Shown here piece after piece: positions 7,110-49,550 of a DNA stretch of 64,000 nucleotides. The position numbers were made by a program, and so were the translations under genes. Location: NCBI RefSeq assembly GCF_000170755.1, contig NZ_ABCK01000016.1:1-64000 (forward strand). The letters are read 5' to 3'. Source of the DNA: Lentisphaera araneosa HTCC2155. GTDB taxonomy: Bacteria > Verrucomicrobiota > Lentisphaeria > Lentisphaerales > Lentisphaeraceae. The notes beneath the pieces were generated by a model. That model made no database searches, was not told where the DNA came from, and saw nothing but the letters and a program-made list of their open reading frames with translations. How positions within the stretch are numbered: the first letter of the stretch is position 1; each line of letters begins with the position of its first letter.

Positions 7110-9170
7110 TTATTTAATCAGTCGTTCAACCTTTGGGTCGAGCTGTTTGAGTTGTTTGGGCAGAAATTGTTTTGATGAAATAATAACTTGTTTCAAAGCG
7201 GGTAATTGATTGAGCGGAGACAAATCACTCACGAGCGTTTTGCGTAGATCAATAACTTCGAGTTCATTAAGTCCTCGTAGTTGATTTAGATCATGTATTT
7301 GGGTTTCTCTAATATCGAGTGTTTTTATCTTAAGGGGAGCTAGCATAGAATTGCGATGATTCCTCATGTTTCGTGTGCCTAATATTTTGAATTCTGAGCC
7401 TCTTAAGCGCAAAGAAAAATCTTTAACGGAATAGACGAATTTACCATTTTTTGAATCGCCATTTCTGGTCGCGATCATATGGGCGACGATTTGATCGTAT
7501 GAGCTCATGTCAGTTCTCAAAGCCGCATCATAGACCATGACTTTTTCCATGAAAATTTCATTGCGGTGATTAAAGCTTTTAAATAGTTTAATGAAATCTT
7601 TTATGGGCAACAAGCCATCAGTATTTTTCTTGATTTTCACGTAATTCTTAGAGAATTTAAAAAGCGACAGTCTTGGATTGCTATCTTTGTTTAATTCAAT
7701 AACGGCTTTAAAATCTTGTGTGATAAAGTAGTACTCGCTTAGAATATTATTGCGTGACGCACCCGTATTACGAGATTCAAAATTGGCAATTTTTTGCTGG
7801 ACACTTTCAATAGGATTTCTATAATCAATACTCTCAAAATTAGAGGGGCGCACCAAGCTTTTTTGGGCGTTGAGGGCGGCGACGCGCTTTTGTTCATTTT
7901 GATAAACGAGTAAGAGCTCTTCGGCTTGGATTTGGGCTTCCGTGGCTTCTTGTTCCGACTTCTCGGCTTGGGTTTTAGCTTTTTCAGCCTCAGTTCTAGC
8001 GGCAATCGCTTGAGAAGTTTTTTCATTTAGATTGTAGATGAATTGAGCCGTTAAAAAAACTAAAATCGAGAGAAACAAAAAAGATAAATGGCAGAGCGAT
8101 TTATTGCGTTGATAGAGAAGCTTCATGGACTTCAACATGGTGGCATTTTCGGCATCGGTGGCAAAACCAGCGAGGTAGGCATGGACTTCATCGCGCAATT
8201 TTAATACAGAATTGTATCGATCGTCAGGATTTACGGCCATAGCCTTGAGTACAACGGCGTTTAAACTTTCGGGTATGTTGAGTTCTGGCGCACGTTCAAT
8301 TGCAGGAGTGATTTTCCCAAGGAGTGTTTTTTCTAAAATATCTTGAGTGTCACCTTCTAGGGGGCGTCGATTTGTGAGGATTGTATAGAGTAAGCAACCT
8401 AGTGAATAAATGTCAGTTTTTGTACTCTTTTCCATATCTTTTGTAATTTGTTCGGGAGCCATATACGACGGCGTCCCTTTGACCTGGCCCGTAAGGGTCA
8501 TGTTGTTGAGCCAATCTGATTTAAAGAGCTCGTTATCCCCCGAAATTTCCTTGCCTCCAATGATTTTTGCCAAGCCCCAATCGCAGACGAGTACTTCACC
8601 GAATTCACCCACCTGAATATTATCGGGTTTGATATCGAGATGAATGACCCCTTTTGAGTGCGCAAAGGCAATGGCGTCGCAAATTTTAATGAAGATTTCG
8701 AGAAGGGAATTGAGCGGATATTTATCTAGGTAGTCATTTTTTTCCTTGTGTTTAGCAATGAGAATTTTCTCTAGATTGTCGCCATCTTTTAATTCCATTG
8801 TAAAAAAGGGCGTGTTGTCGCTATCGATGCCCAAGTCGTGAATGGTCATGATGTTGGGGTGTTCGAGGAGACCAGTTATGCGAGCTTCGCAAATAAAGGG
8901 GTCGTAGTGTTCTTGCTCTGCGTGTTCGTGCAATTTTGCCATGGCAATATAACGACCGGCGACAGAGTCAAAAACGCGGTAGATTTTTTTCATGCCACCA
9001 GCATTGATGGGTTCAGGATCTAAGTAGCGTTTGCGAATGACTTCAAGACTTTCAAAAAGGGGGCTGCTAGGAGTTGATTCAGAAGACTGGTCATCGAGAG
9101 CATCGTCAAAAAGAGAGAGTAGGTTATCTGTCTTGGTATTCTCTGGGTTGATGGTGGTCGATTTCTGCAT
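7110..9170 (-). CDS. Membrane Hanks-type serine/threonine protein kinase with C-terminal leucine-rich repeats
   Basis: 686 residues. The kinase domain covers about residues 50-330. It has a Gly-poor nucleotide loop (INAGGMKKIYRV), ATP lysine K79 (AMAKL), catalytic D179 in HLDIKPDN, metal D197 in DWG (DFG variant) and APE in SYMAPEQ. The usual HRD arginine is leucine. A transmembrane helix lies near residues 357-377 (SFLFLSILVFLTAQFIY), then an Ala/Glu-rich coiled coil. The C-terminal part reads as short leucine-rich repeats (LNELEVIDLRKTLVSDLSPL) and probably lies outside the membrane. The sigma-factor gene ends 7 bases upstream, so the two are almost certainly co-transcribed. Its role is probably control of the partner sigma factor or of a stress or nutrient regulon; this is inference from planctomycete pairs of the same kind. 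Confidence 0.88.
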   Translation of the reverse strand: MQKSTTINPENTKTDNLLSLFDDALDDQSSESTPSSPLFESLEVIRKRYLDPEPINAGGMKKIYRVFDSVAGRYIAMAKLHEHAEQEHYDPFICEARITGLLEHPNIMTIHDLGIDSDNTPFFTMELKDGDNLEKILIAKHKEKNDYLDKYPLNSLLEIFIKICDAIAFAHSKGVIHLDIKPDNIQVGEFGEVLVCDWGLAKIIGGKEISGDNELFKSDWLNNMTLTGQVKGTPSYMAPEQITKDMEKSTKTDIYSLGCLLYTILTNRRPLEGDTQDILEKTLLGKITPAIERAPELNIPESLNAVVLKAMAVNPDDRYNSVLKLRDEVHAYLAGFATDAENATMLKSMKLLYQRNKSLCHLSFLFLSILVFLTAQFIYNLNEKTSQAIAARTEAEKAKTQAEKSEQEATEAQIQAEELLLVYQNEQKRVAALNAQKSLVRPSNFESIDYRNPIESVQQKIANFESRNTGASRNNILSEYYFITQDFKAVIELNKDSNPRLSLFKFSKNYVKIKKNTDGLLPIKDFIKLFKSFNHRNEIFMEKVMVYDAALRTDMSSYDQIVAHMIATRNGDSKNGKFVYSVKDFSLRLRGSEFKILGTRNMRNHRNSMLAPLKIKTLDIRETQIHDLNQLRGLNELEVIDLRKTLVSDLSPLNQLPALKQVIISSKQFLPKQLKQLDPKVERLIK

Positions 9171-9177
9171 GGAGAAT

Positions 9178-9765
9178 TTAATATTCTAATTGCGTCACGA
9201 GGACGCGGACTTCATCCATGAATTTCTTTTTGACGCGGTTTTTTAAAACGTAGACCGAGTCTTTTTTCAAATTGAGTTTTTCGGCGATTTCTTCCGAGCT
9301 TAAGCCCTGCATCGAGAGATCAAAAACGTCGATGGCATTACCCGAAAAGAGCGACTTCATTTTTTCAAAGGCCAGGTCACAAATATAGGACTTCCACTCT
9401 TTCTCAATGATTAGGTCCAGTTCAGAGGGCGGGGTGGAGTCAATGTACTCATTCATTTTTTCGGCGTCGCGTTTGGCCTGGTTGGCTTGCTTGCGATAAT
9501 AATTGAGTGTGGTGTTGCGAATGACGGCTCCCATCCAGTTGCGAAAGGAAGCTTTTTCTTTATCATATTTGGCGAGATCTTTCCAGAGGCTCAATAAAAT
9601 CATTTGGGTCAGATCATCAGTATCTTTTCCAGAAAACCTCAGTTTGTAAATGAGTACCTGAATAAAATCTTTGTAGTAGGAAATGAATTCTTCCCAAGCT
9701 TGATGATCATCGGGGTTTTTAGCTCGCAAAAGCAGCGTTTGGCGGGTGACCCATTCATTACTCAT
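9178..9765 (-). CDS. ECF-type RNA polymerase sigma factor
   Basis: 195 residues. Region 2 is near residues 25-95 (FIQVLIYKLRFSGKDTDDLTQMILLSLWKDL, FRNWMGAVIRNTTLNYYRK). Region 4 is a helix-turn-helix near 145-185 (LSMQGLSSEEIAEKLNLKKDSVYVLKNRVKKKF). No anti-sigma gene is adjacent. Instead a transmembrane Ser/Thr kinase follows after 7 bp, the arrangement known for kinase-linked ECF groups in Planctomycetes and relatives, where phosphorylation is thought to replace anti-sigma control. It is the first gene of the two-gene unit. Confidence 0.88.
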   Translation of the reverse strand: MSNEWVTRQTLLLRAKNPDDHQAWEEFISYYKDFIQVLIYKLRFSGKDTDDLTQMILLSLWKDLAKYDKEKASFRNWMGAVIRNTTLNYYRKQANQAKRDAEKMNEYIDSTPPSELDLIIEKEWKSYICDLAFEKMKSLFSGNAIDVFDLSMQGLSSEEIAEKLNLKKDSVYVLKNRVKKKFMDEVRVLVTQLEY

Positions 9766-9969: not shown

Positions 9970-11511
9970 CTAGAGTGAGTTCACATAGTTCTCTAATTCG
10001 TGATCCTGAGTTTCTTTCAATAATTGGATCATATTTTTGCGAATCTTTTCGAGGACAGGACGGTATTCAGGATTCTTCGCTAAATTATTTCTGCAGCCAG
10101 GGTCTTTGACGATATCATAGAGTTCTTCGGGAGCGCGGAATTTCATGAATTTCGCACGCTTTTTGTAATCGGGGTAATTTTTGTCGAGTTGATTTTTTGA
10201 GTGTTTATTTAAGAGGTGGCTAACGGCGCCACCCATTTGCTTCGGTAGTTGAGCATCACCATCTGCCCAGCCGTTCCAAACATAGGAAAAGCGCGTGTTA
10301 TTCAAAGCTCTAGAAGGGCGGTACTGCTCGGTTTTTTGATAGAGGTCAGTGGAGTATTCAGGTGCCAATTGATCTTGTGGTTTATTATTGTTCATGTAAT
10401 TAAAAGTACTGAAGGCAAAGTTGCGATTCCACTTGGAGTTTTCAGTTTTTGCGAGGTCCGCAAAAGACTTGCCATCAGTGGCTTTGATAGCGTTGATTCC
10501 ACAAATCTCAGCTAGGGTTGGGGCAATATCCACCGCAGAAACAATCGCATTCTTTTCTCTTCTTCCAGGCTTGATTTGTGCTGGCCAACGCATGAGGAGT
10601 GGTGTGCGAGTTCCCGAGGGATAAAGCGACCACTTACCCATTTGCCAAGGCATGCCATGATCCGATAAAAAGATCACTAGTGTGTTGTCAGCCATACCAC
10701 TTTCGTCTAACTCTTTGAGGATGCCACCAATAATTTGATCCATGCGGTTGACGCCGTCAAAATAAAGTGTCGCCTCTTTTTTGAAGTTAATATCATCTGG
10801 GTATGATGCGGGGAGAACAATCTCCTCCGGCTTGTATTGAGTTAAAGGGTCAGGGTAAGGTTTGCCATTTTCATAAGCTTTCCAGTCCGTGGTGCGCATG
10901 CCCTGATCAAACCAGCGTTTATTTTCTCCTTTACTACGGGGCCAATAGTGATGGGGGTCGTGGGTATTGGCCGCTAAATAGAAAGGTTTATTTTCTTTTT
11001 TTGCTCGAGCTAGGAAATCCTTCACAAAAGCGGAATATTTATTGTGGTCGCGGCCAAAACCGGTTTGCTGATAGTCGCAGAATTTTTCATCAAACTTACA
11101 AACTGAAGTACCGTGTTTTCCCACAATGCCGGTCAAATAACCTGACTTATGCAGTTCTGAAGTGATGGATTTCTTGGGGAACTTACCGCCATTTTTTCTC
11201 CACCAAGTGGGAGGTTGAACTCCGTGGCCCATATAGCCGCTCGTATGGGGGTGACGCCCTGTATATAAAGCCGTTCTAGAAGGTCCGCAAATGGGTGTAG
11301 AAATAAAGCAGTGTTCAATAATGAGTCCATCCGAAGCCATTTTATCCAAGTTCGGTGTTAAACCTTCGATGGGATTCCCCATGCAACCTAGTGAGTCCCA
11401 GCTCAAATCGTCTGCGGTGATGAGTATAATATTTGGTCTTTCGGATTTATTTGAAAAGCCATTGAAACCTAAGAGTAATAAACTAAGAATGAGCAGTCTC
11501 TGTAATAACAT
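9970..11511 (-). CDS. Secreted type I (S1) sulfatase, heparan N-sulfatase-like
   Basis: 513 residues from the chosen ATG. A longer frame reaches 11619, but the ATG at 11509-11511 has an AAGG box and starts directly with the signal peptide (MLLQRLLILSLLLLGF). Metal-binding DD is in ITADDLSWDSLG. The catalytic site is C75-G-P-S-R, the formylglycine precursor, followed by TALYTGRHPH. A second metal site is in FLSDHGMPWQMGKW. The overall pattern resembles SGSH-like sulfatases. The enzyme removes sulfate esters or N-sulfates from glycans in the periplasm and needs a formylglycine-generating enzyme encoded elsewhere. It is monocistronic; the 21-bp direct-repeat motif lies 39-71 bases upstream of the ATG. 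Confidence 0.9.
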   Translation of the reverse strand: MLLQRLLILSLLLLGFNGFSNKSERPNIILITADDLSWDSLGCMGNPIEGLTPNLDKMASDGLIIEHCFISTPICGPSRTALYTGRHPHTSGYMGHGVQPPTWWRKNGGKFPKKSITSELHKSGYLTGIVGKHGTSVCKFDEKFCDYQQTGFGRDHNKYSAFVKDFLARAKKENKPFYLAANTHDPHHYWPRSKGENKRWFDQGMRTTDWKAYENGKPYPDPLTQYKPEEIVLPASYPDDINFKKEATLYFDGVNRMDQIIGGILKELDESGMADNTLVIFLSDHGMPWQMGKWSLYPSGTRTPLLMRWPAQIKPGRREKNAIVSAVDIAPTLAEICGINAIKATDGKSFADLAKTENSKWNRNFAFSTFNYMNNNKPQDQLAPEYSTDLYQKTEQYRPSRALNNTRFSYVWNGWADGDAQLPKQMGGAVSHLLNKHSKNQLDKNYPDYKKRAKFMKFRAPEELYDIVKDPGCRNNLAKNPEYRPVLEKIRKNMIQLLKETQDHELENYVNSL

Positions 11512-11549: not shown

Positions 11550-11582
11550 CTTGATTAACTAAGAAAGATATTTTCTTAACAA
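11550..11582 (-). promoter_or_regulatory. 21-bp direct-repeat operator candidate, site A
   Basis: Read on the minus strand: TGTTAAGA, 13 bases, then AGTTAATCAAG, repeats exactly 21 bp apart. It is upstream of the sulfatase starting at 11511. Matching sites are at 15772, 20687 and 43239. Confidence 0.6.
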
Positions 11583-11670
11583 GGAAAATGATATTTTTTG
11601 ATAGTAAATAAGGATTCAACAGTAATGAATAATGACTCTTTGGGCGTTAGGGAGATTATGGCTATGTGGC

Positions 11671-13139: not shown

Positions 13140-15734
13140 TTACTTGGAAGGTGCGGGGATGATTATGTCGTACAGTTGCCACCAAGATTTCTTGTCTTCG
13201 AGGCTAGTGATTTTAACTTTTACGGCAATCGTTTCCGGGAAGCTGATTACGGTTTTACGCTTGCCAGGAACTTTATCCGCCACAGTCGTCCACGATTTAC
13301 CATCTTTAGAGATTTCGACTTTCAGACTAAGAGGGAAATCTCCACCTTTCGCCATGAGGGTAACTTTCGAAATACGTCTTTCATGAGGGAATTCAGCCTG
13401 AACATAAAAGCCAGCTTTTATTTGCGCTTTTGTGGCATAGGTATTTTTCTTGTCATCATCCTGAAGGTTGCTCAAGTGTTTCTCCCCTTTTTTAGCTGAG
13501 AGTTTCCAGAGTTTAATATCATCGCCAGATTTGAGCATGACTTTGCGTAAGCTTTGTTCGTTATAGGGGCCATCACTCGATTTTGTTTCTTTACGAATTT
13601 TTGCGACTTCCTTTGGGCTAATCATAGGAGCTTTGTTGCCCCAGCTATTGCGAATATAGGTCAGTACTGAAGCGAGGTATTTATCATCATTCGTCTTGAG
13701 TGCCATCATGACGCCACCCGCATAAGTTTTTCCATCAATTGGACCAGTAAAGCCATTGAGTGCAATATGAGCTAAAATCCCCTTGTCGCCAAGAACGCGC
13801 GGGTTGTTTACAAAGGCTGGAGCCATCATGGCCTGTCCTGCGGGCATGCCTTCGCCTTTTAGGCCGTGGCAAGAGGCACAGAGTGCTGCGTAGTGTTTGG
13901 AACCTGCATCCATGAGTTCACGCTCTTCTTCTGCGAAAGCCGCAAGAGCTTTTTGACGTTTGATTTCTTCGAAATAGGTTTTGTTGAGTTCGGTGTCGAT
14001 TTCCGCGAGGTAATCATTGCTGGCTTGGGTTTTTATCAATACTTCCGCAAACTTACGGGTGTCAGGTGTGACTTTAGTCGACATAGAGAGAATGAGTTGA
14101 ATATGAACGTCGTGATGACTGTCTTTGATAAGTCCGCGAAGACCTTTTAATACTGACATGTCTTCATGAAAGTAGGGTTCAGTCATGCGAATAGCTGCAC
14201 AACGAATATTCACATCTTTATCTTTGTAGAGTTTTTGGAGGTAAGGCAGTGTAATTGCATCAAAACCGTGAAGTGTCCAAAGGGCATGGAGGCGTCCGAG
14301 GTGAGATTTTCCTGAGGCAACAATTTTTTGTAAAGCTGGAATTACTGAACGATCTCCATGGAGAATGATGAGTTTTTGCGCTTCATCACGCCACCAGCCG
14401 TTAGGGTGAGACAGGTGCTTGACCAATTGCGCAGGACTTTCTTCAAGCATGCGAGGTTTCTTGTCATTTGGTTTGTAGTCAGGGTGACGAACGCGATAAA
14501 TACGTCCGTGTTTGATGTTTTTCTCGAGTCCGTAGTACTCAATAGCTTTTCGTACAAAAGATCCTTTTGGCACCCATTGTCCTTCTTGGATGATACCGCG
14601 GTGCATATCTACAATATAAAGCGTGCCATCGGGCCCCGTAGCAGCATTGACTGGACGGAAGTTAGCATCGGTGCTGGCGATGAATTCCTTTTGTTGTTCG
14701 CCGTAAGCATTGGTCATGATACGGCGTCCCATGGCATCCTTTTTGAAGCTAGTACGACGAGTTAAACGTCCAACAGGAGAACTAAAGAAGAGTTCACCTA
14801 CCATCTCTTGTGGGAGCCGGTCACCGCGAAAAACTGCCTGGCCGCAGGTGTCGGTAAATCTCTTGAGTTCGCCATTTTCGCGCATGGAGTTAAAACCACC
14901 TTGAGCATCCCAAACGCGATCTATACCCCACATAGATTTGAAACCTTGATCGCGAACCCATTTAGGATCCCATTTTGTGTAGACGTTGGGGAATAAAGTG
15001 TGAACGGGGCCAATACCTGCGCCCGCATCAGCATAAATGACTTTACCCAAGTTATCTTGAGTTAAACCCCATTGGCCGCGATTACCGGCGGTCATGGTTT
15101 TTTTAACTGTACCATCGGTGTAGCGGTAGGCGTGTTGGTTGTAGCTTGTGTAAATATTATTGTCCATTGCCCAGATTAAACCACTGGGCTGGTGCTCTAA
15201 GTTGCCACCGCGTTTTCCGCCTTCATACCAGATTTCTTTTTTATCGGCAATGCCATCATTATTCGTATCCCAGTATTCATAGATGTCGTGAGTATTGGTT
15301 TCACCGATGAGAACAGAATCTTTTAAAGGAAGGATCATGCGGGGGAGGATCATTTTATCGACAAAGACTGTACGCTTGTCCATGATGCCGTCATCATTGC
15401 TATCTTCTAAGCGTAAAACACGACTGACCTTGTCGTACTTGCCGCTGCCATCGACATCCTGCATGTAGGTTTCGAATTGAGCCACATACATGCGGCCATT
15501 GCCATCCCAAACGCAAAGCGTCGGCTCGGAGAGCATATCATCACCAGCGACGAGTTCGAGGCTATATTTGTCTTGGACTTCAAATTCTTTCATTGATTCA
15601 GCATGTGTGCGCTGACGTACGAGGGGATCTTGCGAGCCTTGCTTTTTAGAAAAGTCAGGAGCGTTTGCGGGAGCCGCAAAAATTGAGCTACAGAGGCTGA
15701 GGGCAAAGCCAATAATTCCGATTTTTTTATACAT
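13140..15734 (-). CDS. Secreted PVC-type membrane-bound dehydrogenase with heme-binding domain
   Basis: 864 residues. A signal peptide covers residues 1-20. The Pirellula/Verrucomicrobium dehydrogenase beta-propeller covers about 35-410, with calcium-loop motifs DVDGSGKYD, DSNDDGIMD and DTNNDGIAD. A HEAT-like region spans about 470-580. The cytochrome c-type site is C619-A-S-C622-H623-G. A C-terminal F5/8C-like sandwich ends the protein. It matches the core of the 1267-residue protein at 3186-6989 across nearly its whole length but lacks that protein's ThuA head and NPCBM tail. The inferred role is periplasmic oxidation of a sugar with electrons passed to the heme; substrate unknown. It has its own direct-repeat motif upstream (15772-15805) and its own terminator. 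Confidence 0.88.
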   Translation of the reverse strand: MYKKIGIIGFALSLCSSIFAAPANAPDFSKKQGSQDPLVRQRTHAESMKEFEVQDKYSLELVAGDDMLSEPTLCVWDGNGRMYVAQFETYMQDVDGSGKYDKVSRVLRLEDSNDDGIMDKRTVFVDKMILPRMILPLKDSVLIGETNTHDIYEYWDTNNDGIADKKEIWYEGGKRGGNLEHQPSGLIWAMDNNIYTSYNQHAYRYTDGTVKKTMTAGNRGQWGLTQDNLGKVIYADAGAGIGPVHTLFPNVYTKWDPKWVRDQGFKSMWGIDRVWDAQGGFNSMRENGELKRFTDTCGQAVFRGDRLPQEMVGELFFSSPVGRLTRRTSFKKDAMGRRIMTNAYGEQQKEFIASTDANFRPVNAATGPDGTLYIVDMHRGIIQEGQWVPKGSFVRKAIEYYGLEKNIKHGRIYRVRHPDYKPNDKKPRMLEESPAQLVKHLSHPNGWWRDEAQKLIILHGDRSVIPALQKIVASGKSHLGRLHALWTLHGFDAITLPYLQKLYKDKDVNIRCAAIRMTEPYFHEDMSVLKGLRGLIKDSHHDVHIQLILSMSTKVTPDTRKFAEVLIKTQASNDYLAEIDTELNKTYFEEIKRQKALAAFAEEERELMDAGSKHYAALCASCHGLKGEGMPAGQAMMAPAFVNNPRVLGDKGILAHIALNGFTGPIDGKTYAGGVMMALKTNDDKYLASVLTYIRNSWGNKAPMISPKEVAKIRKETKSSDGPYNEQSLRKVMLKSGDDIKLWKLSAKKGEKHLSNLQDDDKKNTYATKAQIKAGFYVQAEFPHERRISKVTLMAKGGDFPLSLKVEISKDGKSWTTVADKVPGKRKTVISFPETIAVKVKITSLEDKKSWWQLYDIIIPAPSK

Positions 15735-15771: not shown

Positions 15772-15805
15772 CTTGATTAACATGAAGAGCGAGGTTCTTA
15801 ACAAG
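15772..15805 (-). promoter_or_regulatory. 21-bp direct-repeat operator candidate, site B
   Basis: On the minus strand: CTTGTTAAGA, 13 bases, then TGTTAATCAAG. The two TGTTAA cores are exactly 21 bp apart. It is 38 bases upstream of the ATG at 15734. Confidence 0.65.
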
Positions 15806-16468: not shown

Positions 16469-17473
16469 CTATTTAACTGGCTTGGGTAGGAGGCCGAGTT
16501 TGGCGCTTGGGGTGGCGTCGGCTTCTAGGTCACCGCAGGCATACTGAATGCCAGATAGCATGTGCTGGAGAGCGACTTTGTCGAAGTAGGTCGCTTCGTT
16601 GTGACCAAGGTTCGTATAGAATACGCGTGAACCTGTGTAGCTGCGCAACCAAGACACGGCATAGTCATTGTCTTTGCGTTTCATATTTTTCTTCATCATG
16701 TTCTCACCTGATAGGTCGAGGCTGAGTAAGACGCGCATTTTATCGCGGGTAAAGTGTTCATCATCTTTGTACTGATAAATTTCATCGCGAATTTTATAGC
16801 CTTGTGGAACATGTTTACAGCAGGGGTGATCGAGGCCTTCGTTATAGAGTGTGACAGTTGAACCTGCGCCCCAAGGGTGACCATCAAAAATCCCACCCAT
16901 AGCTTCCAAGTACTCAGGCCAATCTTTGTGGCAATCAGTAGCGGCATGAATGCCCACAAGGCCTTTGTTTGAAGCCATGAACTTTTCAAAGGCAGCTCTT
17001 TGCTCAGGTGATTTAATGGGATTGTTAGTTGTGCTAAGCATGAGGATGACATCGTATTTTGCGAGCTCCGCATCATTAATCATTTCTGCATCTTCGGTAT
17101 GTGTGGAGGTATATGCACCGCTTTGCTCACCTAGAAGTTTGAGGACATCCGCGGCTAATTCAATCGAGGTATGGCGAAAGCCGGTTGTTTTTGAATAGAT
17201 GAGAACCTTTCTCGCTTTCTTAGGTTTTTGGACTTCCATGTTCTTGATATCGCTTTTGATTTGCTCCCCATGATCTAACCACAAGACTTTATGATGGAGG
17301 GCAATGACTTGTTTATTGAGTGCGCGTGATTCTTTAATTTTCTTAGCTTTTCGAAGCGAGCTCACTTCTTTTTTCATGAGCTTAATTTTAGCGTGTATGG
17401 CTTTGGATTCTTCATTGGCAAAGACTGAAGCACAGAAAAAAGTGAGAATGAGCAGTATAGATTTAACTTTCAT
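16469..17473 (-). CDS. Secreted ThuA-domain protein
   Basis: 334 residues. A signal peptide covers about residues 1-19 (SILLILTFFCASVFA). A charged coiled-coil stretch at residues 22-70 precedes the ThuA-like domain at about 85-315 (KVLIYSKTTGFRHTSIE; GLVGIHAATDCHKDWPEY; GIFDGHPWG; NLGHNEATYFDK). ThuA folds resemble class I glutamine amidotransferases, but the catalytic Cys is generally lacking. Related proteins are linked to trehalose or disaccharide 3-keto-sugar metabolism, so the exact chemistry stays open. It is the third gene of an operon after two sulfatases (19-bp gap). The same domain is fused to the dehydrogenase at 3186-6989, which suggests the two act on the same substrate. Confidence 0.85.
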   Translation of the reverse strand: MKVKSILLILTFFCASVFANEESKAIHAKIKLMKKEVSSLRKAKKIKESRALNKQVIALHHKVLWLDHGEQIKSDIKNMEVQKPKKARKVLIYSKTTGFRHTSIELAADVLKLLGEQSGAYTSTHTEDAEMINDAELAKYDVILMLSTTNNPIKSPEQRAAFEKFMASNKGLVGIHAATDCHKDWPEYLEAMGGIFDGHPWGAGSTVTLYNEGLDHPCCKHVPQGYKIRDEIYQYKDDEHFTRDKMRVLLSLDLSGENMMKKNMKRKDNDYAVSWLRSYTGSRVFYTNLGHNEATYFDKVALQHMLSGIQYACGDLEADATPSAKLGLLPKPVK

Positions 17474-17492
17474 GGTTGATCCTTTTTAATAA

Positions 17493-19289
17493 TTAATAAG
17501 AAAATTCGCGGACGGCAATTTTAGTGCCTTTTTCGGCGCCAAAAATAACGAGGCGTAAGAAGCGGTAGGTTTTTTGACTCGTGCTATTCTTGCTCACCGT
17601 TTCCCTAGTGCGGTTGCCGAATTTATTGAGGAGGATATCCCAATTATCACCATCCATAGAGGTGCCAATCGCGTAACGGTAGGTGGCTTCTTTTTCCCAA
17701 GTGATTTTAAACTCTGAACTTGTTTGGGCTTCTTTGAACTCAATTTGTAGCCAAAGATTCTTTTGCCCTTTGGGTGTCCAACGAGTTTTTTCATTTTTAT
17801 CAAAAGCATTTTTAGCGACATTCTTGTATTGATGCCCCGATGATTGAATAAATGTAGCGGCAGTAAAAGATGGAGCTTGGGGAACGGGGGTCTCGAATTC
17901 GGCTTGGACCAATTGTTCTTGTTCAGCTTCGAGCAGCATCTTTGTCATGGCAGCCACTTTTTCGGGCATTTGCGGAGCTAAGTTATGACTTTCGGCGATA
18001 TCGCCCTCAAGGTTGAATAGCTCAGTTTCCTTGCGCACGTTGTTTTTCTTATCCCAAGACATACGCAGTTTCATATTGCCGATGCGCAGCGCCTCGATGT
18101 GGTTTTTACTCCAAAAATAGAATTTTTCGTAGGGGCTTTTACCCTTATTTCCGTCACGTAACATGGGCGCAATATTTTTGCCATCGAGGGTGCGATTGGG
18201 GAGTTGGGCATTTGCGAGTTTCGCAAAAGTTGGCATAAAATCGAGAGTCGTTGCGATCTCCGCAGAATCAGTGCCTGCAGGGATAGTTCCAGGCCACCAC
18301 ATGACACAGGGGACGCGATGCCCACCTTCGTAAGTCGAGAATTTAGCACCGCGCAAGGGAAGGGCAGATCCACCGCGTTCGCCCAAGTTCCAAGGGCCAT
18401 TATCAGAAGTAAAGATCACTAGTGTATTTTTATCCGCACCACTCGATTTAAGGTGTTTGAGAATGCGACCAACGTGATAATCCATTTCTTCTACCGTGTC
18501 GCCGTAGGGGCCTCGTGCACTCTTTCCCGCAAATTTTGGTGAGGCATAAAGGGGAACGTGAGGCATGGCATAGGCGAGGTAGATGAAGTAGGGCTGCTTT
18601 TTCTTTTCGGATTCTTTGATGATTTTCAGGGCTTCGTCAGTGTAACGCTGGGTGATATAAGTTTGATCCACGGGGTATTCAACGACTTCTTCGTCGCGCA
18701 TCAATGGCACTTTGCCACCACGCTTTTCACCCTTAACGGCTTTGCTAGCTTCACCGGATTTGATTTGCTCAACAGTGACGCCACCAAAGAGCTTGATGTC
18801 ATCGGCTAGAGCTAAATCTTTACTCATCCACATATCGTTACTGAAGGGGATTCCAAAATAGCTATCAAAACCTTGATTAGTGGGTAAAAATTGATTGCGA
18901 TCGCCAAGGTGCCATTTGCCAATAATTGACGTTCTATAGCCAGCGGTTTTGAGGACTTCGGCAATGGTGATTTCCGAGGGCTTAAGACCTTGTGAAGCTC
19001 CAGGATAATAAACGTGAAAAACTCCATTGCGCGAAGGGTAGCGACCGGTGAGTAAAGCCGCACGAGATGCTGAACAAATAGCATTGGCAGAATAGAAGTT
19101 CGTGTAGCGGGCACCTTCTTTAGCCATTTGATCAATTTCGGGTGTTTTGATTTTTGGTGAGCCAAAACAACCGAGATCTTGGTAGCCTTGATCATCAGTA
19201 AAAATGACGATAAAATTTGGCTTTTTATCGGTCGCTTGTAGGTGGAGATAAGCAAGGCCTAAGACAAGAATGCTAATGAGTTTCTTCAT
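17493..19289 (-). CDS. Secreted S1 sulfatase with C-terminal F5/8C-like domain
   Basis: 598 residues. Signal peptide residues 1-19. Metal DD is in IFTDDQGYQDLGCFG. The formylglycine site C72-S-A-S-R uses the permitted Ala at +2 (C-x-P/A-x-R). A later metal site is FTSDNGPWNLG. Residues about 465-598 form a beta-sandwich resembling F5/8 type C (coagulation factor) domains, probably carbohydrate-binding. Substrate unknown. It is the middle gene of the sulfatase-sulfatase-ThuA operon; gaps are 15 bp upstream and 19 bp downstream. Confidence 0.9.
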   Translation of the reverse strand: MKKLISILVLGLAYLHLQATDKKPNFIVIFTDDQGYQDLGCFGSPKIKTPEIDQMAKEGARYTNFYSANAICSASRAALLTGRYPSRNGVFHVYYPGASQGLKPSEITIAEVLKTAGYRTSIIGKWHLGDRNQFLPTNQGFDSYFGIPFSNDMWMSKDLALADDIKLFGGVTVEQIKSGEASKAVKGEKRGGKVPLMRDEEVVEYPVDQTYITQRYTDEALKIIKESEKKKQPYFIYLAYAMPHVPLYASPKFAGKSARGPYGDTVEEMDYHVGRILKHLKSSGADKNTLVIFTSDNGPWNLGERGGSALPLRGAKFSTYEGGHRVPCVMWWPGTIPAGTDSAEIATTLDFMPTFAKLANAQLPNRTLDGKNIAPMLRDGNKGKSPYEKFYFWSKNHIEALRIGNMKLRMSWDKKNNVRKETELFNLEGDIAESHNLAPQMPEKVAAMTKMLLEAEQEQLVQAEFETPVPQAPSFTAATFIQSSGHQYKNVAKNAFDKNEKTRWTPKGQKNLWLQIEFKEAQTSSEFKITWEKEATYRYAIGTSMDGDNWDILLNKFGNRTRETVSKNSTSQKTYRFLRLVIFGAEKGTKIAVREFSY

Positions 19290-19304
19290 GAAAAGTCCTT
19301 ATTT

Positions 19305-20657
19305 TTATATCTTGTTTTTTGATTTTTTCTTCTTTGGTTTCTTACCCTGATAAAGTGCCTTTGGAATGACGCGTGTCGTTTGGCTGACAATTTTCATTTC
19401 GGCTTCGAGGAAATTCTTGACTTTCAGTGCTTCACCTTGAGGGTTGGAGATTGGGTTCTTTTCTTGACGATCATTGGGGATATCATAGAAGCTACCATCA
19501 TTATAAAGTTTGTAGCGCTGAGTACGGATGAAATCCTGGCGTAACAAAGTGAATTTATTAAAATAGGCGGAGTAAACCCACTTTCTTTGTTCTGATTTTT
19601 TTCCTTGGAGTGTGGGAAGAAAAGAAACACCATCCATTTTGCGATCGCTGGGCATTTTGCCTCCACCAGCTTCTGCAAGTGTGACGAAGAAGTCGCTAAA
19701 GTCAATCAGTTGATCAGTGACGAGTCCTTTGACCCCTTGTGAGGGCCAAGAAACGACGAGGGGAACATGTGTGCCAGCGTCTTTTAAAGTGGCTTTAGCT
19801 CCTCGAATCTCGCCCATTTTTGTATTGGAACTAATCATTGAGTGGGTGCCGTTATCGCCCGTGAAGATTAAAATTGTGTTGTCGCGAATGCCGAGTTCTT
19901 CGAGTTTAGCATCAATTTTGCCGACAATTTTATCCATATAATGCACCATGTCGACAAAGTTGTCTTTAACCATTTTACTACGAACTTCTTTTGGGAGCTT
20001 CTTACGATCTTTCAAAGTCACTCCTAGGCGTGCGCTATCTTGCGTGTCGGGGGTGGGGTCCATGGGATCGTGAACTAAGATCATCGGGTAGTAAAGAAAG
20101 AAGGGCTTATCTTTGTGACGGGTGATGAAGTCGAGGGCGAAGTTGGCCATGAGGTCGGGGCCATATTCGCCTTGATCGCCGGGGAGGAGTTCTCCATTGC
20201 CGATAAGTTCCCCTACGTTATTATAGCGTTCAGATTTATTTTCGAGCCACCAAAGTAAGTACTCATCAAAGCCAAAATGATTGATCAGTTCGCGATTGCG
20301 GCCCAATTGCCATTTACCGCAAATAGCCGTTACGTAACCCGCATCTTGCATCATTTTGCCAAAAGTAATTTCATTTTTGTCCAGCTTACCAAAGCCAGGG
20401 TAATTGCGATGGTTATAGCGACCCGTCATGATTTGATTGCGTGAAGGAGTGCAAAGAGCTTGAGCGTAACAGTGCTTGAATAAGACACCATTTTTACCAA
20501 TCTTGTCGATGTTTGGCGTCTGGTAATCGAGTGAACCATAACAGGAGAAGGCTTCCATGCCCACGTCATCCGCCATAATTAAAATGACATTGGGTTTCTC
20601 TGCGGCACAGATGCCGAGCACCAGTAATTGGATGAAAATTCCAGCTAAAAATTTCAA
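19305..20657 (-). CDS. Secreted S1 sulfatase
   Basis: 450 residues. Signal peptide residues 1-19. Metal DD is in IMADDVGMEAFSCYG. Formylglycine site C69-T-P-S-R, followed by NQIMTGRYNHRNY. Late metal site FTGDNGTHSM. The C-terminus is a short lysine-rich tail (KKPKKKKSKNK), a feature shared with the sulfatases at 38902 and 40497. It is the first gene of the three-gene operon with the sulfatase at 17493 and the ThuA protein. The 21-bp direct-repeat motif lies 30-63 bases upstream. Confidence 0.9.
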   Translation of the reverse strand: MKFLAGIFIQLLVLGICAAEKPNVILIMADDVGMEAFSCYGSLDYQTPNIDKIGKNGVLFKHCYAQALCTPSRNQIMTGRYNHRNYPGFGKLDKNEITFGKMMQDAGYVTAICGKWQLGRNRELINHFGFDEYLLWWLENKSERYNNVGELIGNGELLPGDQGEYGPDLMANFALDFITRHKDKPFFLYYPMILVHDPMDPTPDTQDSARLGVTLKDRKKLPKEVRSKMVKDNFVDMVHYMDKIVGKIDAKLEELGIRDNTILIFTGDNGTHSMISSNTKMGEIRGAKATLKDAGTHVPLVVSWPSQGVKGLVTDQLIDFSDFFVTLAEAGGGKMPSDRKMDGVSFLPTLQGKKSEQRKWVYSAYFNKFTLLRQDFIRTQRYKLYNDGSFYDIPNDRQEKNPISNPQGEALKVKNFLEAEMKIVSQTTRVIPKALYQGKKPKKKKSKNKI

Positions 20658-20686: not shown

Positions 20687-20720
20687 CTTGATTAACAAGA
20701 ACCCCAAAAATCTTAACAGG
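20687..20720 (-). promoter_or_regulatory. 21-bp direct-repeat operator candidate, site C
   Basis: On the minus strand: CCTGTTAAGA, 13 bases, then TGTTAATCAAG, with exact 21-bp spacing. It precedes the sulfatase-sulfatase-ThuA operon. Confidence 0.65.
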
Positions 20721-27132: not shown

Positions 27133-28263
27133 ATGAGTAAGACCCCCGAAATAATTTTAGCCTTGGATTGGTATGATTACCGAATTCATCAAGGTGTAGT
27201 GAACGTTGCGCGAGAAAATGGTTGGAGTTTGTTATTTTTACAAAATTCATTTCGTAGTAGTGCTGTACCCGCAGCATGGAGAGGAGATGGCGCTATAACT
27301 CTAATTCATAGTGCTGAGACCTATCAATTTTTTCAAACACATAAAATTCCTGTTGTGGATTTGGGTTTAAATAAACATGGTTTAGCCATACCTCGGGTAG
27401 TGACAGACAATGTAGAGTTAGGGCGCATGGCTGCAGAACATTTTCTCGAGCGTGGATTTACACATTTTTATGCATTATCCACCAACAATATTCAGATGTT
27501 TCAGGAGCGTTACCAAGCCTTTAAAGAAACACTCATGAAGAAAGGCTATGATTGCGAAATAATTGAAGTCCCTAACCTCTATGATACGCACCTTCTAGAT
27601 TTATCTCAGGCGATTTTAAAGCAAAAACTGTCAAAGTTCAAAAATCCTGCAGCGCTTTTTGCTTACGAAGATAGCTGGGCAGCACAGTGGATTTATTTAG
27701 CGGAATCAATGGGCTTAAAAGTGCCAAATGATTTGGCTATTTTAGGGGCAGATAATAACCCTCTTATTGCAAGGTCTCTTTCAACGCCTTTAAGCAGTGT
27801 AGAAACTAACCAAGAGGGTCTTGGACAACAAGCAGCACTGGTTTTGAAAGACCTAATGGAAGGTAAGGGGATAGGGGATCACCTTTATAAACTTCAGCCA
27901 ACTTCAGTGGTGACTCGAGCAAGTACAGATGTTATTGCAAGCTCAAATCCGGTAATTCGTACAGCCTTGGAGATTATGAATAATGACATTTCAATAACAG
28001 CAGCTGAGGTAGCCCAACAAATGGATATGACTCAGCAGGGCTTGCAAAGAGCTTTTCGGACTCATTTTCATTTATCACCAGGTCAGATCTTAAGGAAATT
28101 ACGTATTCGTTTTATAAAAAATGCACTTGTTCATACAGATAAGTCTATGGAAGAAATAGCTTTTGAAGCAGGCTTTACCTCTACGCCATCTCTTTATCTT
28201 TTCTTTAAGAGAGAGGCTGGTGAAACACCTGGTAACTATAAAAAAAATAAAATAAAAAAATAA
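27133..28263 (+). CDS. XylR-like transcriptional regulator (LacI-type sensor fused to AraC HTH)
   Basis: 376 residues. Residues 1-270 form a type I periplasmic-binding-like sensor (IILALDWYDYRIHQGVVNVAREN; FAYEDSWAAQWIYLAESMGLKVPNDLAILGADNN; PLSSVETNQEGLGQQAA). Residues 275-376 are an AraC double helix-turn-helix (ITAAEVAQQMDMTQQGLQRAFRTHF; MEEIAFEAGFTSTPSLYLFFKREAGETPGNYKK). The architecture and length match the xylose regulator XylR of E. coli (about 390). The ligand is likely xylose or a xyloside, and targets are likely the divergent GPH-GH10 operon and the GH43 gene. AGGAG lies 7 bases before the ATG. Confidence 0.88.
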   Translation: MSKTPEIILALDWYDYRIHQGVVNVARENGWSLLFLQNSFRSSAVPAAWRGDGAITLIHSAETYQFFQTHKIPVVDLGLNKHGLAIPRVVTDNVELGRMAAEHFLERGFTHFYALSTNNIQMFQERYQAFKETLMKKGYDCEIIEVPNLYDTHLLDLSQAILKQKLSKFKNPAALFAYEDSWAAQWIYLAESMGLKVPNDLAILGADNNPLIARSLSTPLSSVETNQEGLGQQAALVLKDLMEGKGIGDHLYKLQPTSVVTRASTDVIASSNPVIRTALEIMNNDISITAAEVAQQMDMTQQGLQRAFRTHFHLSPGQILRKLRIRFIKNALVHTDKSMEEIAFEAGFTSTPSLYLFFKREAGETPGNYKKNKIKK

Positions 28264-36387: not shown

Positions 36388-36408
36388 AAGGTTCCCGTTT
36401 TGTTTCAT

Positions 36409-36758
36409 AGCTGCTTAGTTATACTCAAGTGAGCCCACTGAAAAAATTTTCTACGTATATATGAAGTTCTGTGAGGTCTGAGCTTTCTCTTGCTGAGTTT
36501 GTTTGCAGCTTCTAAGCGGATCTTAACAGGGTAAGTATGAACATAGAGAGAAATGTGTTATCTCGGCATGGTTTTTCTCAGGTTTACCTAGGAGCTAGTA
36601 TGACGAATTATGCGCCGTTCCATCAGAACGGAGTGGGGTGTGAAAACGAAAGCCTTATGGTTGACAAGTATAGTTTGAGTTATGCTTCGTACCTTCGGCA
36701 CGAGGACTATTTTTCTCAAGACAATAGCAATGCTGTTCAATGGGTATTCAAATCAAAT
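36409..36758. repeat. Gene-free spacer with palindromic repeat modules and degenerate direct-repeat site E
   Basis: 36605-36705 carries GCCGTTC(C)ATCAGAACGG-type and CTTCGTACCTTCGGCACGA modules shared with 38395-38735 and, more loosely, with 15840-16440. At 36497-36530 the minus strand reads CCTGTTAAGA then, 21 bp on, TGCAAACAAAC: a strong first half and weak second half of the direct-repeat motif. A 78-codon frame across the repeats is judged spurious. Confidence 0.55.
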
Positions 36759-41960: not shown

Positions 41961-42217
41961 AGTTTTCCTTTTAAATGTTAATTGAATTAACTACACCGCG
42001 GAATAAAAAATGTTTGAGCTTAGATTTAGTTTTTTGATGATTGTGCCTGTTTGTGCTTTCATCGCAAGCCTCAACTCAAGCTTCTTTGCAGAGTTCATTA
42101 ACCATCCTTTTAACAATCTAAACACATTTTGTCGATTGTGAGATGTTTTTCTTAAGAGGTTCGCGATAGTCCTGAGTGTAATGAGCCTTATTTCGAAGAT
42201 TTTCACACTTGGTGTAT

Positions 42218-43238: not shown

Positions 43239-43273
43239 CTGTTAAGAAAGCGTATGACGAGGTTAACTAATTG
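43239..43273 (+). promoter_or_regulatory. 21-bp direct-repeat operator candidate, site D
   Basis: CTGTTAAGA, 13 bases, then GGTTAACTAATTG, with exact 21-bp spacing. It is on the plus strand, 33 bases before the ATG of the sulfatase-esterase operon, in the same orientation relative to the gene as sites A-C. Confidence 0.55.
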
Positions 43274-43305: not shown

Positions 43306-45384
43306 ATGGTCAATAAAATTGTAGCTGCACTTCTCATGAGTTTAGTGGGGCTTGCTAATCAAGTTGAGGCTAAGGATAGACCCAATATCGTTTGGATAGT
43401 GAGTGAAGACAATGGCGCGCGTTGGTTAGGAGCCTATGGCAATCCAGCTAAACCAACTCCCACACTCGACAAAATGGCTGCGGAAGGTTTTCTGTTTACC
43501 AATACTTATGCGTCAGTACCTGTATGTGCTCCTCAGCGTTCTACTTGGATTACGGGGATCAATGCTATTTCAATGGGGACTCAAGGTATGCGCAGCGGCT
43601 TTAATGTTCCTGATAATATTAAATTTTATCCCGAAATTTTTCGAGAAATTGCTTATTATACCAGCAAGGGTAATGACGCTAAGAGTGATTACAATTTGCG
43701 TAGTCCGCGCAATCCAAACGATACCTGGAATGACCCCAAGAAAATTGTTTGGGAAAACTTAAAGAAAAATCAGCCTTTTATCCACGTTTTTAATACTCAT
43801 GCGACGCACGAATCACGGTCTTTTGGCGGCTTTAATCCGGAAAAAGATAAAGTAGCGAAAGCGCAGAACTTAGCTTCTTATCATCCCGATCTTCCAGGGA
43901 TGCATTTCGTCTATGACAAGTATAATAAGTGTTTGCAAAAATTAGATGGTGAAGTCGCGGGTTGGCTCAAAGAGCTAGAAGAAAACGGACTCGCGGAAAA
44001 CACAATCGTCATTTATTCCTCTGACCATGGCGGTGTTTTACCTCGTTCAAAACGTTACCTCTACAATAGTGGAACTCATTGCCCCTTGATTGTGCGAATT
44101 CCGCAAAAATTTAAGCATCTCTACCCAGCTAAACAGCCAGGGATGAAAGTGGATGAACTCGTGAGTTTTACTGATTTTCCTAAGACTTGGTTGAGTTTGG
44201 GTGGAGCGAGTGCTGAACAGCTCAAACAAATGCAAGGGCGCGTTTTCTTAGGAAGTCAAAAAGAAGCTGAGCCCGAATACATTTTTACTTTTAGAAATCG
44301 CATGGATGATCGCATGGATATGGTGCGTTCCGTTCGCGATCATAAACACCTATATATTCGCAATTATATGCCCTTTGTCCCTAATGGCCAATTCTTGCCC
44401 TATACCTACAATATGGAAGCCACTAGGGCTTGGAAGCAATACTTTTTGGATGGCAAAGCGAGTAAGATTGAATCACGTTTCTTCGGCAAAGATCGAGCGA
44501 GCGATGAATTTTATCTTTACAATGAAGATTACGACAATGTGAAAAATGTCGCTTCCGCTCACCAAGCTGAGATTAAAAAAATGCGTCAGGCGCTACGTGA
44601 ATGGCAACTGAAAATTTTCGATAGTGGCTTTTTATCAGAATATGATATGACTAAAGAGCTGAGACAGCATGAGCTCACTGCTTATGAATACGTGCGCAAA
44701 CCCGATTTGTATCCCCTCGCGGAATATATTGACATGGCGGATAAATCGCTCGAATATGACCCCTCAAATATTCCTTTGTTTGTGAAGTCTTTAGACGATA
44801 AATATATCGGTAAACGTCATTGGTCGATCTTGGGTCTTTTGAACTTGAGTTTTGCAGGTAAGCTACAGGCTGACTCCAAAGCGCTTGCGGCGCTCGAGTC
44901 CTTTGTTAATCGCGAGGGTGAGTCCGTATTGCAACAGGCCTATGCGAGTTGGGTTCTTATTCGCGAGGGCAAAAAATCTGCGGGGCTCGCAAAAATTCGG
45001 GAAATAGGAAAGGACAAAAAATATACGAGAACGATGGTCAATATGCTGGATTGGATTGATTTCAACGATATAAAACCCGTGGCCATTGAGTACTTCATCA
45101 AAGGTGAAATGGGCGGGGTTGATGCTACTCGAGTTTTAGCCAGTGTTTTAATTGAAGATGGTTCACCAGAATTAGCGGAATTGACTAAGCAATCGGAAAG
45201 TCTTCGTCACAAAATTAAAGCTAAAGAGGGACGTATTAAAAAGCTTAAAGCAGGTAAAGAGAAGAAGTATTCGCCGGAACGCGTTCAAACAGAAATTAAA
45301 AAAGCGCAAGCTGAATTAGATCAATACGAATCCGAGCGCAATGAGGTCCTCGATAAAATGAGAGCTTTTATTAGCCAAGTATAA
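43306..45384 (+). CDS. Secreted long S1 sulfatase with C-terminal helical extension
   Basis: 692 residues. Signal peptide residues 1-22. Instead of the usual DD the N-terminal metal site reads V-S-E-D-N-G. Formylglycine site C74-A-P-Q-R (Gln at +3), followed by STWITGINAISMGTQGMRS. Late metal site YSSDHGGVLPRSKRYLY. Beyond about residue 480 is a HEAT-like helical region and a final charged coiled coil (residues about 630-690), not usual for S1 enzymes. Close paralogue of 51011-53146. First gene of an operon: 11 bp to the esterase, then 28 bp to the 926-residue protein. AGGAG lies before the ATG. Confidence 0.88.
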   Translation: MVNKIVAALLMSLVGLANQVEAKDRPNIVWIVSEDNGARWLGAYGNPAKPTPTLDKMAAEGFLFTNTYASVPVCAPQRSTWITGINAISMGTQGMRSGFNVPDNIKFYPEIFREIAYYTSKGNDAKSDYNLRSPRNPNDTWNDPKKIVWENLKKNQPFIHVFNTHATHESRSFGGFNPEKDKVAKAQNLASYHPDLPGMHFVYDKYNKCLQKLDGEVAGWLKELEENGLAENTIVIYSSDHGGVLPRSKRYLYNSGTHCPLIVRIPQKFKHLYPAKQPGMKVDELVSFTDFPKTWLSLGGASAEQLKQMQGRVFLGSQKEAEPEYIFTFRNRMDDRMDMVRSVRDHKHLYIRNYMPFVPNGQFLPYTYNMEATRAWKQYFLDGKASKIESRFFGKDRASDEFYLYNEDYDNVKNVASAHQAEIKKMRQALREWQLKIFDSGFLSEYDMTKELRQHELTAYEYVRKPDLYPLAEYIDMADKSLEYDPSNIPLFVKSLDDKYIGKRHWSILGLLNLSFAGKLQADSKALAALESFVNREGESVLQQAYASWVLIREGKKSAGLAKIREIGKDKKYTRTMVNMLDWIDFNDIKPVAIEYFIKGEMGGVDATRVLASVLIEDGSPELAELTKQSESLRHKIKAKEGRIKKLKAGKEKKYSPERVQTEIKKAQAELDQYESERNEVLDKMRAFISQV

Positions 45385-45395
45385 GGGAGGATCAA

Positions 45396-46283
45396 ATGAA
45401 GTGTTTTATTAGCATCATTTTATTGACTTTTGCACTGAGTGCAAAGGATTTACAAGATGGGGAATACTTTATTCAACAGTCTTGGGCGCAAGAAAAGAAT
45501 TATCAACGTTCCTATCTTGTGCAAGTCCCCGTGGAAAGCTCCAAAAAGAAAAAACCCGTCTTTATATTCTTACATGGTAATGGGGGTAAAGCAGCAGCGG
45601 CTATGAAGAATTTTATGAGGTCGGAAAGGCTGTTGAAAGATCATTTTATCATGGTTTTCCCTCAAGGCTATAAAGCGAGTTGGAACATCGTTTCGGAGCG
45701 AGCCAAGTCGAATGATCTAGTCTTTGTGGAATCGATCATTAAGGATTTACAGAAGTACGATAATGTTGATGCGACTCATTTCAGTATCATGGGTAATTCC
45801 AATGGAGCGGCTTTAGTGAATCAAATTGCTATTGAAACACAAATGGCTTGTATAAAAAATTACATTTCAGCTGTGAGCCCCCTCAATGGCTACCAATACG
45901 ATGGCAAGAACTTTAAAAAACGGGGGCATGATAATAATTATCGCGAAGTAGCCAAGCCACTCAAAGGGATTCGCCTATTAAATATATCTGGAACTCAGGA
46001 TGGCTTAGTTCCCTATGAAGGAGGCGACTCTAAACGAATCCCTGCTAAAGACGGAAAACTTCCTTTTGTCGCAGCTGAGGAATCAATTTTTATATGGGCC
46101 AAAGCGATGGGCTATACGGGAGATAAGTTAGAGAAGGGTGAGCGATTAAACAAAAAAGTAGAAAGATTTTCTTACCTAAATGGGGACCTGATTCATTATA
46201 AAGTCGATGGTGGTCACGGTGCAGGAGGGTCCATAGGAGATGCTCTATTACTGGAGTTTCTATTAGGTGAATCAGTCAGATAA
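45396..46283 (+). CDS. Secreted alpha/beta-hydrolase, LpqC / CE1-like carbohydrate esterase
   Basis: 295 residues. Signal peptide residues 1-16. The oxyanion region FIFLHGNGGKAAAAM and the nucleophile elbow G-N-S135-N-G follow the poly(3-hydroxybutyrate) depolymerase/LpqC and feruloyl-esterase pattern. A catalytic Asp is likely in ISGTQDGLVPYEGG and the His in VDGGHGAGG. It probably removes acyl or feruloyl esters from a polysaccharide so that neighbouring enzymes can act; exact substrate unknown. Middle gene of the sulfatase-esterase-926-residue-protein operon (11- and 28-bp gaps). Confidence 0.85.
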   Translation: MKCFISIILLTFALSAKDLQDGEYFIQQSWAQEKNYQRSYLVQVPVESSKKKKPVFIFLHGNGGKAAAAMKNFMRSERLLKDHFIMVFPQGYKASWNIVSERAKSNDLVFVESIIKDLQKYDNVDATHFSIMGNSNGAALVNQIAIETQMACIKNYISAVSPLNGYQYDGKNFKKRGHDNNYREVAKPLKGIRLLNISGTQDGLVPYEGGDSKRIPAKDGKLPFVAAEESIFIWAKAMGYTGDKLEKGERLNKKVERFSYLNGDLIHYKVDGGHGAGGSIGDALLLEFLLGESVR

Positions 46284-46311
46284 AAATCATAAAAAAAGTT
46301 AGAGTTGTGTA

Positions 46312-49390: not shown

Positions 49391-49550
49391 AAAAGGGATG
49401 AACTGAGGGACATGTGATTTTGAACCATTGCGATGGGCATTAAATTCCAATTTGTTGTTTAGAATCAGATGATTGCAGATAATCAACATTATAGGTTCAG
49501 TTACCTTGGGCCATTGATTTTTAAATGATATTTACAATGAGGTTAAGTTT

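Follow-up and report, generated by a model that had tools for sequence, protein, structure and literature searches.

Which sulfatases does a bacterium rich in them express, and what reads the signals ahead of these genes? The question arises in Lentisphaera araneosa HTCC2155, where a short bipartite motif recurs ahead of sulfatase operons in a window of 64,000 nucleotides (contig NZ_ABCK01000016.1, positions 1 to 64,000), the whole stretch of DNA analyzed here. Comparison with related genomes points, with high confidence, to a bipartite promoter (-35 TGTTWAGA, N13, -10 NGKTAATNAA) served by an ECF sigma factor whose gene (9178-9765) belongs to the same cluster. Gene clusters of this bacterium can now be tied to given sigma/kinase pairs, and for sulfatase-rich PVC bacteria a readable promoter turns the choice of sulfatase expression into testable pairings of cluster and sigma/kinase pair.

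Genes and regulators of the window

The window holds eleven sulfatase genes, along with genes for DUF7133/cytochrome proteins, ThuA, and glycoside hydrolases. Its principal features are these:

7110..9170, minus strand: transmembrane Ser/Thr protein kinase, put forward as cognate sensor/activator of the sigma factor (Pkinase 2.4e-34; TM-like segment C-terminal to the kinase domain; 7 nt from the sigma gene)
9178..9765, minus strand: ECF sigma factor that probably reads the promoters (Sigma70_r2 1.2e-12; TIGR02937 70.7 bits; orthologs in the same cluster of 3 relatives)
9970..11511, minus strand: sulfatase (PF00884), predicted target
13140..15734, minus strand: protein with DUF7133, HEAT, cytochrome c, and F5/8C domains, predicted target
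16469..20657, minus strand: operon of sulfatase, sulfatase-F5/8C, and ThuA genes, predicted target
27133..28263, plus strand: XylR-like regulator (periplasmic-binding domain and AraC HTH), rejected as reader of the motif
30550-33261: hybrid histidine kinase
43306..49092, plus strand: operon of sulfatase, alpha/beta hydrolase-like, and PA14 genes, predicted target

The sigma factor (195 aa) matches sigma region 2 (PF04542) at 47.8 bits against a cut-off of 24, and TIGR02937 over residues 23-181, well above its cut-off of 42.9. It has a region 4 helix-turn-helix and no region 3; the helix-turn-helix, at residues 146-182, is detected by the GerE model (24.6 bits, cut-off 23.5), while Pfam Sigma70_r4_2 scores 20.9, under its cut-off of 25.7. 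A Mutator-family transposase gene (11825-13027, plus strand) lies between two target operons, and a 95.5% identical copy is found near the orthologous cluster of Lentisphaera marina.

A recurring motif at promoter distance

The strict pattern TGTTAAGA-N13-DGTTAAYYAA has four exact matches in the window, where 100 dinucleotide shuffles lead us to expect 0. Weaker copies accompany them:

11551..11581, minus strand: exact site, -35 TGTTAAGA and -10 AGTTAATCAA; before the sulfatase at 9970-11511; leader 39 nt; orthologous site in 3 relatives
15773..15803, minus strand: exact site before the DUF7133/cytochrome c/F5-8C protein at 13140-15734; leader 38 nt; orthologous site in G005
20688..20718, minus strand: exact site before the sulfatase/sulfatase/ThuA operon at 20657-16469; leader 30 nt; orthologous site in G005
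36498..36528, minus strand: weak copy with 3 mismatches, 89 nt before the sulfatase at 34918-36408
42094..42124, minus strand: copy TGTTTAGA-N13-GGTTAATGAA, 2 mismatches to the strict pattern and an exact fit to the relaxed motif given below; 133 nt before the sulfatase at 40497-41960
43240..43270, plus strand: exact site before the sulfatase/hydrolase/PA14 operon at 43306-49092; leader 35 nt; orthologous site in G001 and G002
49456..49486, plus strand: copy TGTTTAGA-N13-AGATAATCAA, 2 mismatches to the strict pattern, 64 nt before the sulfatase at 49551-50999

Across the whole genome (6,023,180 bases, 6.02 Mb) the same four sites are the sole exact matches, all ahead of genes and no more than 35 kb from the sigma gene, and the reversed control pattern has 0. 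With two mismatches allowed, the motif yields 12 matches genome-wide and the reversed control 11, so outside the window the strict pattern is at noise level. A one-mismatch match at C4:317819-317849 lies inside a gene and was taken as chance.

A preliminary description of this DNA had reported four copies with identical spacing, 30 to 40 bases ahead of start codons and in the orientation of the gene, and this holds at every site: the motif ends 39, 38, 30, and 35 nt before the start codon. For the first sulfatase, the TTG start called at 11619 would place the motif within the gene, and we therefore prefer the ATG at 11511. Sulfatases and a cytochrome protein do lie downstream, as described; the ThuA gene belongs to the 20657-16469 operon, and the operon at 43306 consists of sulfatase, alpha/beta hydrolase, and PA14 genes. 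The three weaker copies all precede sulfatases, 64-133 nt from the annotated start. Two of them (at 42094 and 49456) had gone unnoticed, and the third, the half-degenerate fifth copy of the description, may be genuine, since a good copy stands at the equivalent place before the orthologous sulfatase of G005 (G005:C46:58036).

The motif follows the sigma factor across relatives

Orthologs of the sigma factor occur in three relatives, G001 (85% identity), G002 (72%), and G005 (74%), where the next paralogs reach at most 49%. The sigma gene is thus present in all four clusters, and it and the kinase alone, among the regulators recognised in the window, are common to them all.

The strict pattern finds no match outside its own genome in a search of 98 relatives, as the motif there has changed to TGTTWAGA/GKTAATNAA; for cross-genome searches we used the relaxed motif TGTTWAGA-N13-NGKTAATNAA. 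It recurs in the same cluster of each of the three relatives that have sigma orthologs, and throughout the whole genomes G000, G001, G002, and G005 each 0-mismatch match falls within the cluster of the sigma ortholog. Whole-genome searches of G003 and G004, both of which lack the ortholog, return no 0-mismatch match to the relaxed motif. A position weight matrix built solely from the four window sites, with a threshold of at least 16 bits and column-shuffled matrices as control, gives 8 matches in the ortholog cluster of G005 (mean of 0.05 with shuffled columns), 4 in that of G001 (0.15), and 3 in that of G002 (0.22).

Conservation at orthologous promoters is confined to the boxes: 6-8 of 8 positions are kept in the -35 box and 7-9 of 10 in the -10 box (6 of 10 for the weak copy), while the spacer (2-6 of 13) and the upstream flank (9-16 of 40) show chance-like identity. 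The two boxes drift differently from relative to relative. The recognition-helix stretch KKDSVYVLKNRVKKKF of the sigma factor is invariant across the four orthologs, and the motif nearly so. This linkage is strong evidence for tying the motif to the sigma factor and not to the XylR-like gene. Two suggestions of the preliminary description are supported: that one regulator controls a sulfated-glycan regulon, which here is a local one, and, as its alternative reading, that the motif represents an unusual promoter class.

Paralogous sigma factors with motifs of their own

This sigma factor has about 60 paralogs in the genome (70 matches, fragments included). Within the 2.0 Mb examined around ECF genes, 55 of the 64 ECF hits lie no more than 6 kb from a kinase, and 153 sulfatase genes are found. 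The same 2.0 Mb contain 83 pilin-like genes (prepilin N-terminus), a type of gene that turns up repeatedly behind the private motifs. One paralog (G000:C13:79404-80001) is interrupted by two TAG codons and sits beside two intact close paralogs.

At least two further paralogs, on C30 and C7, appear to have a private bipartite motif that tracks the sigma ortholog. The C30 motif, TGTTAAGA-N13-TGWCTTCTAT, precedes three pilin-like genes that flank the C30 sigma/kinase pair. Its first box and its spacing equal those of the window, where the proposed promoter joins TGTTAAGA (-35) with GTTAATCAA; its second box, TGACTTCTAT, is unrelated. The window "repeat" is therefore two different elements. Around the C30 sigma ortholog at G001:C1:700572 there are three 0-mismatch sites; the contigs of the orthologs in G004 (C8) and G005 (C257) carry six and three sites, respectively, with 1-2 mismatches; and G002, which lacks the ortholog, has a single match with 2 mismatches.

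The C7 motif, TGTCAAAAA-N14-GCGTACC, has sites clustered in G001 and G002. From these clusters the positions of the orthologs of ECF C7_123113 were predicted in writing before the search. The prediction came true: the orthologs, 86-87% identical, lie at G001:C2:187346 and G002:C2:2121124, roughly 0.1 kb from the closest sites. Assignment of the motif to another factor, ECF C7_134817, was rejected, as its G002 ortholog is more than 200 kb from the sites.

Recognition-helix identity does not by itself pick out C30, despite the -35 box that it has in common with the window, so the sigma-promoter code is not readable from simple identity. A genome with about 60 such paralogs, for some of which the -35 and -10 boxes have changed separately, would offer a natural data set for that code and a source of orthogonal parts.

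Alternative readers of the motif

The preliminary description saw in the motif a direct repeat, and hence the operator of an AraC-type activator that binds two equal half-sites and controls the sulfatase genes. The window does encode a regulator of this kind (27133-28263), and the boxes resemble two GTTAA copies 21 bp apart. Yet that gene has no ortholog in the motif-bearing clusters of the three relatives; G005, the relative with the most sites, has no relative of it at E<=1e-30; and none of the best motif matches of the window falls within the regulator's own intergenic region. Nor are the half-sites equivalent, as the paralogous C30 cluster combines TGTTAAGA with a second box unlike that of the window. 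The distance of 30-39 nt ahead of the start codon is that of a promoter, unlike the usual position of an activator. An AraC/XylR-type operator is accordingly very improbable. A slightly better, though still small, chance attaches to some other DNA-binding protein, with a gene close to the sigma/kinase pair or inherited along with it, that would bind the motif while the sigma factor acts elsewhere; the linkage of sites and sigma gene is, after all, correlational. Against it stand three independent sigma paralogs that each track a different motif with the same bipartite layout at promoter-like distance, the separate variation of two boxes, which suits the two DNA-binding domains of a sigma factor, and the restriction of shared recognised regulators to the sigma factor and the kinase.

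The closeness of the motif to start codons might suggest a conserved leader-RNA element, and the nearby insertion sequence (11825-13027) a mobile repeat; chance is a further option. Neither a mobile repeat nor a conserved folded RNA fits well with the unconserved spacer and flanks, the shuffle expectation of 0 speaks against chance, and we consider this group of readings the least credible of all. Housekeeping-type promoter matches near the sites do not exceed the shuffle level. In the favored reading, a promoter for the ECF sigma factor, transcription would start a few nucleotides past the -10 box, and the sigma factor is predicted to bind both boxes.

A proposed mechanism and its known relatives

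In the mechanism that we propose, an external cue is probably detected by the C-terminal part of the membrane kinase (7110-9170), which in turn probably regulates the sigma factor by modifying it; once active, the sigma factor would direct RNA polymerase to the promoters of the sulfatase cluster, about 4-7 in number. A membrane-like segment C-terminal of the kinase domain is found in 62 of 65 kinases. All 60 paralogs that cover the relevant stretch carry TRx[T/S] near the N-terminus, which may be a phosphosite or may simply be structural.

Bacteroidetes glycan utilisation loci are under sigma/anti-sigma control, with one ECF factor per locus and one glycan set. They seem to work alike, except that the sigma partner here would be a kinase instead of an anti-sigma factor or TonB-dependent receptor.

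The closest comparison is with ECF43 sigma factors and their cognate Ser/Thr kinases, EcfP/PknT of Vibrio parahaemolyticus and EcfK/PknS of Xanthomonas citri (PMC8103513, PMC13147305). As in ECF43, the ECF sigma gene adjoins a Hanks-type kinase gene, here at 7 nt, and the pair is probably one signaling unit. The ECF43 switch is phosphorylation at a region 2.2 patch devoid of its acidic residues (PMC8103513), and EcfK has further phosphorylation sites (PMC13147305). In L. araneosa, by contrast, the acidic DAED patch is retained: it reads DTDD in the window factor, not replaced by uncharged residues and a phosphorylatable Ser/Thr, and 59 of 61 paralogs keep at least 2 acidic residues. Since the known DAED phospho-switch is absent, we do not file the window factor as ECF43. 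Two more differences are the number of paralogs in one genome and the targets, which are sulfatase and pilin-like genes in place of polymyxin resistance or type VI secretion. The system is thus of the kinase-linked ECF sigma type, and is set apart by its scale, its private promoters, and the missing switch; an existing ECF group may already cover these factors.

Planctomycetes, which belong to the same superphylum as Lentisphaera, have expanded the same gene families, namely sigma factors, kinases, and sulfatases (PMC4807772). Rhodopirellula baltica has 37 ECF factors and 110 sulfatases, and its ECF factor RB138 is induced along with the kinase RB140; an ECF factor beside a PSD/PSC cytochrome gene, in work cited in the same report, was proposed as the regulator of that gene (PMC2754498). 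The portion of that report considered here describes regulation as global, not operon-level, and assigns the sigma factors neither a promoter motif nor sulfatase targets (PMC2754498). Our search found no literature tying ECF factors, sulfatases, and promoters together in this phylum.

How general are private promoters?

For three paralogs (those of the window, C30, and C7), private promoters are well supported by the comparisons above. In a search for cluster-specific bipartite motifs, 17 of 61 ECF windows did better than any of 61 random gene sets. Private motifs at p<1e-5 occur in 21 of 61 ECF windows and 0 of 10 ECF-free 40-kb windows (Fisher 0.022, with the threshold set post hoc), while a Mann-Whitney comparison of the two groups, in which ECF windows overlap one another, gives 0.053. 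The motif excess near ECF genes is modest, and private promoters for most paralogs are for this reason only plausible. Many clusters contain two ECF genes or ambiguous motifs.

The textbook ECF promoter has AAC at -35 and CGT at -10 (PMC8103513). The window boxes follow the bipartite layout but have TGTTAAGA and GTTAAT in place of AAC and CGT. Second boxes elsewhere often contain GT (CGTTT, TGTATTA, TGTAAGT, CGTCTC, GTGTA), and several carry CGT or TGT, reminiscent of the textbook -10 element (PMC8103513).

We tentatively put forward a broader picture, to which we give slightly less than an even chance: dozens of mutually orthogonal sigma/kinase pairs might run the sulfatase and pilin-like clusters of Lentisphaera, each with a private promoter whose boxes are exchanged separately (same -35, different -10), and the kinase might act off the DAED patch, perhaps at the N-terminal TRx[T/S].

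Several other repeats came to light. A second private-looking motif, CGTAATATT..TATATACC, stands ahead of four genes at G000:C30:35-43 kb (L046). At G000:C2:96-115 kb (L075, L076), TTGAGATC-N14-CGTTTTAAT recurs 39-90 nt ahead of several genes and may represent a further sigma promoter or else an operator. The cassette arrays C13:41-57k and C21:17-33k dominated the first within-cluster pair counts and were left out thereafter. These arrays of short genes (G000:C13:42-54 kb, L043; C21:18-32 kb, L063), with near-identical repeats between the genes (TAACAAGAAACTGGAG.., CTAACCAACAAATCG..GATTTTCGTT), resemble integron cassette arrays.
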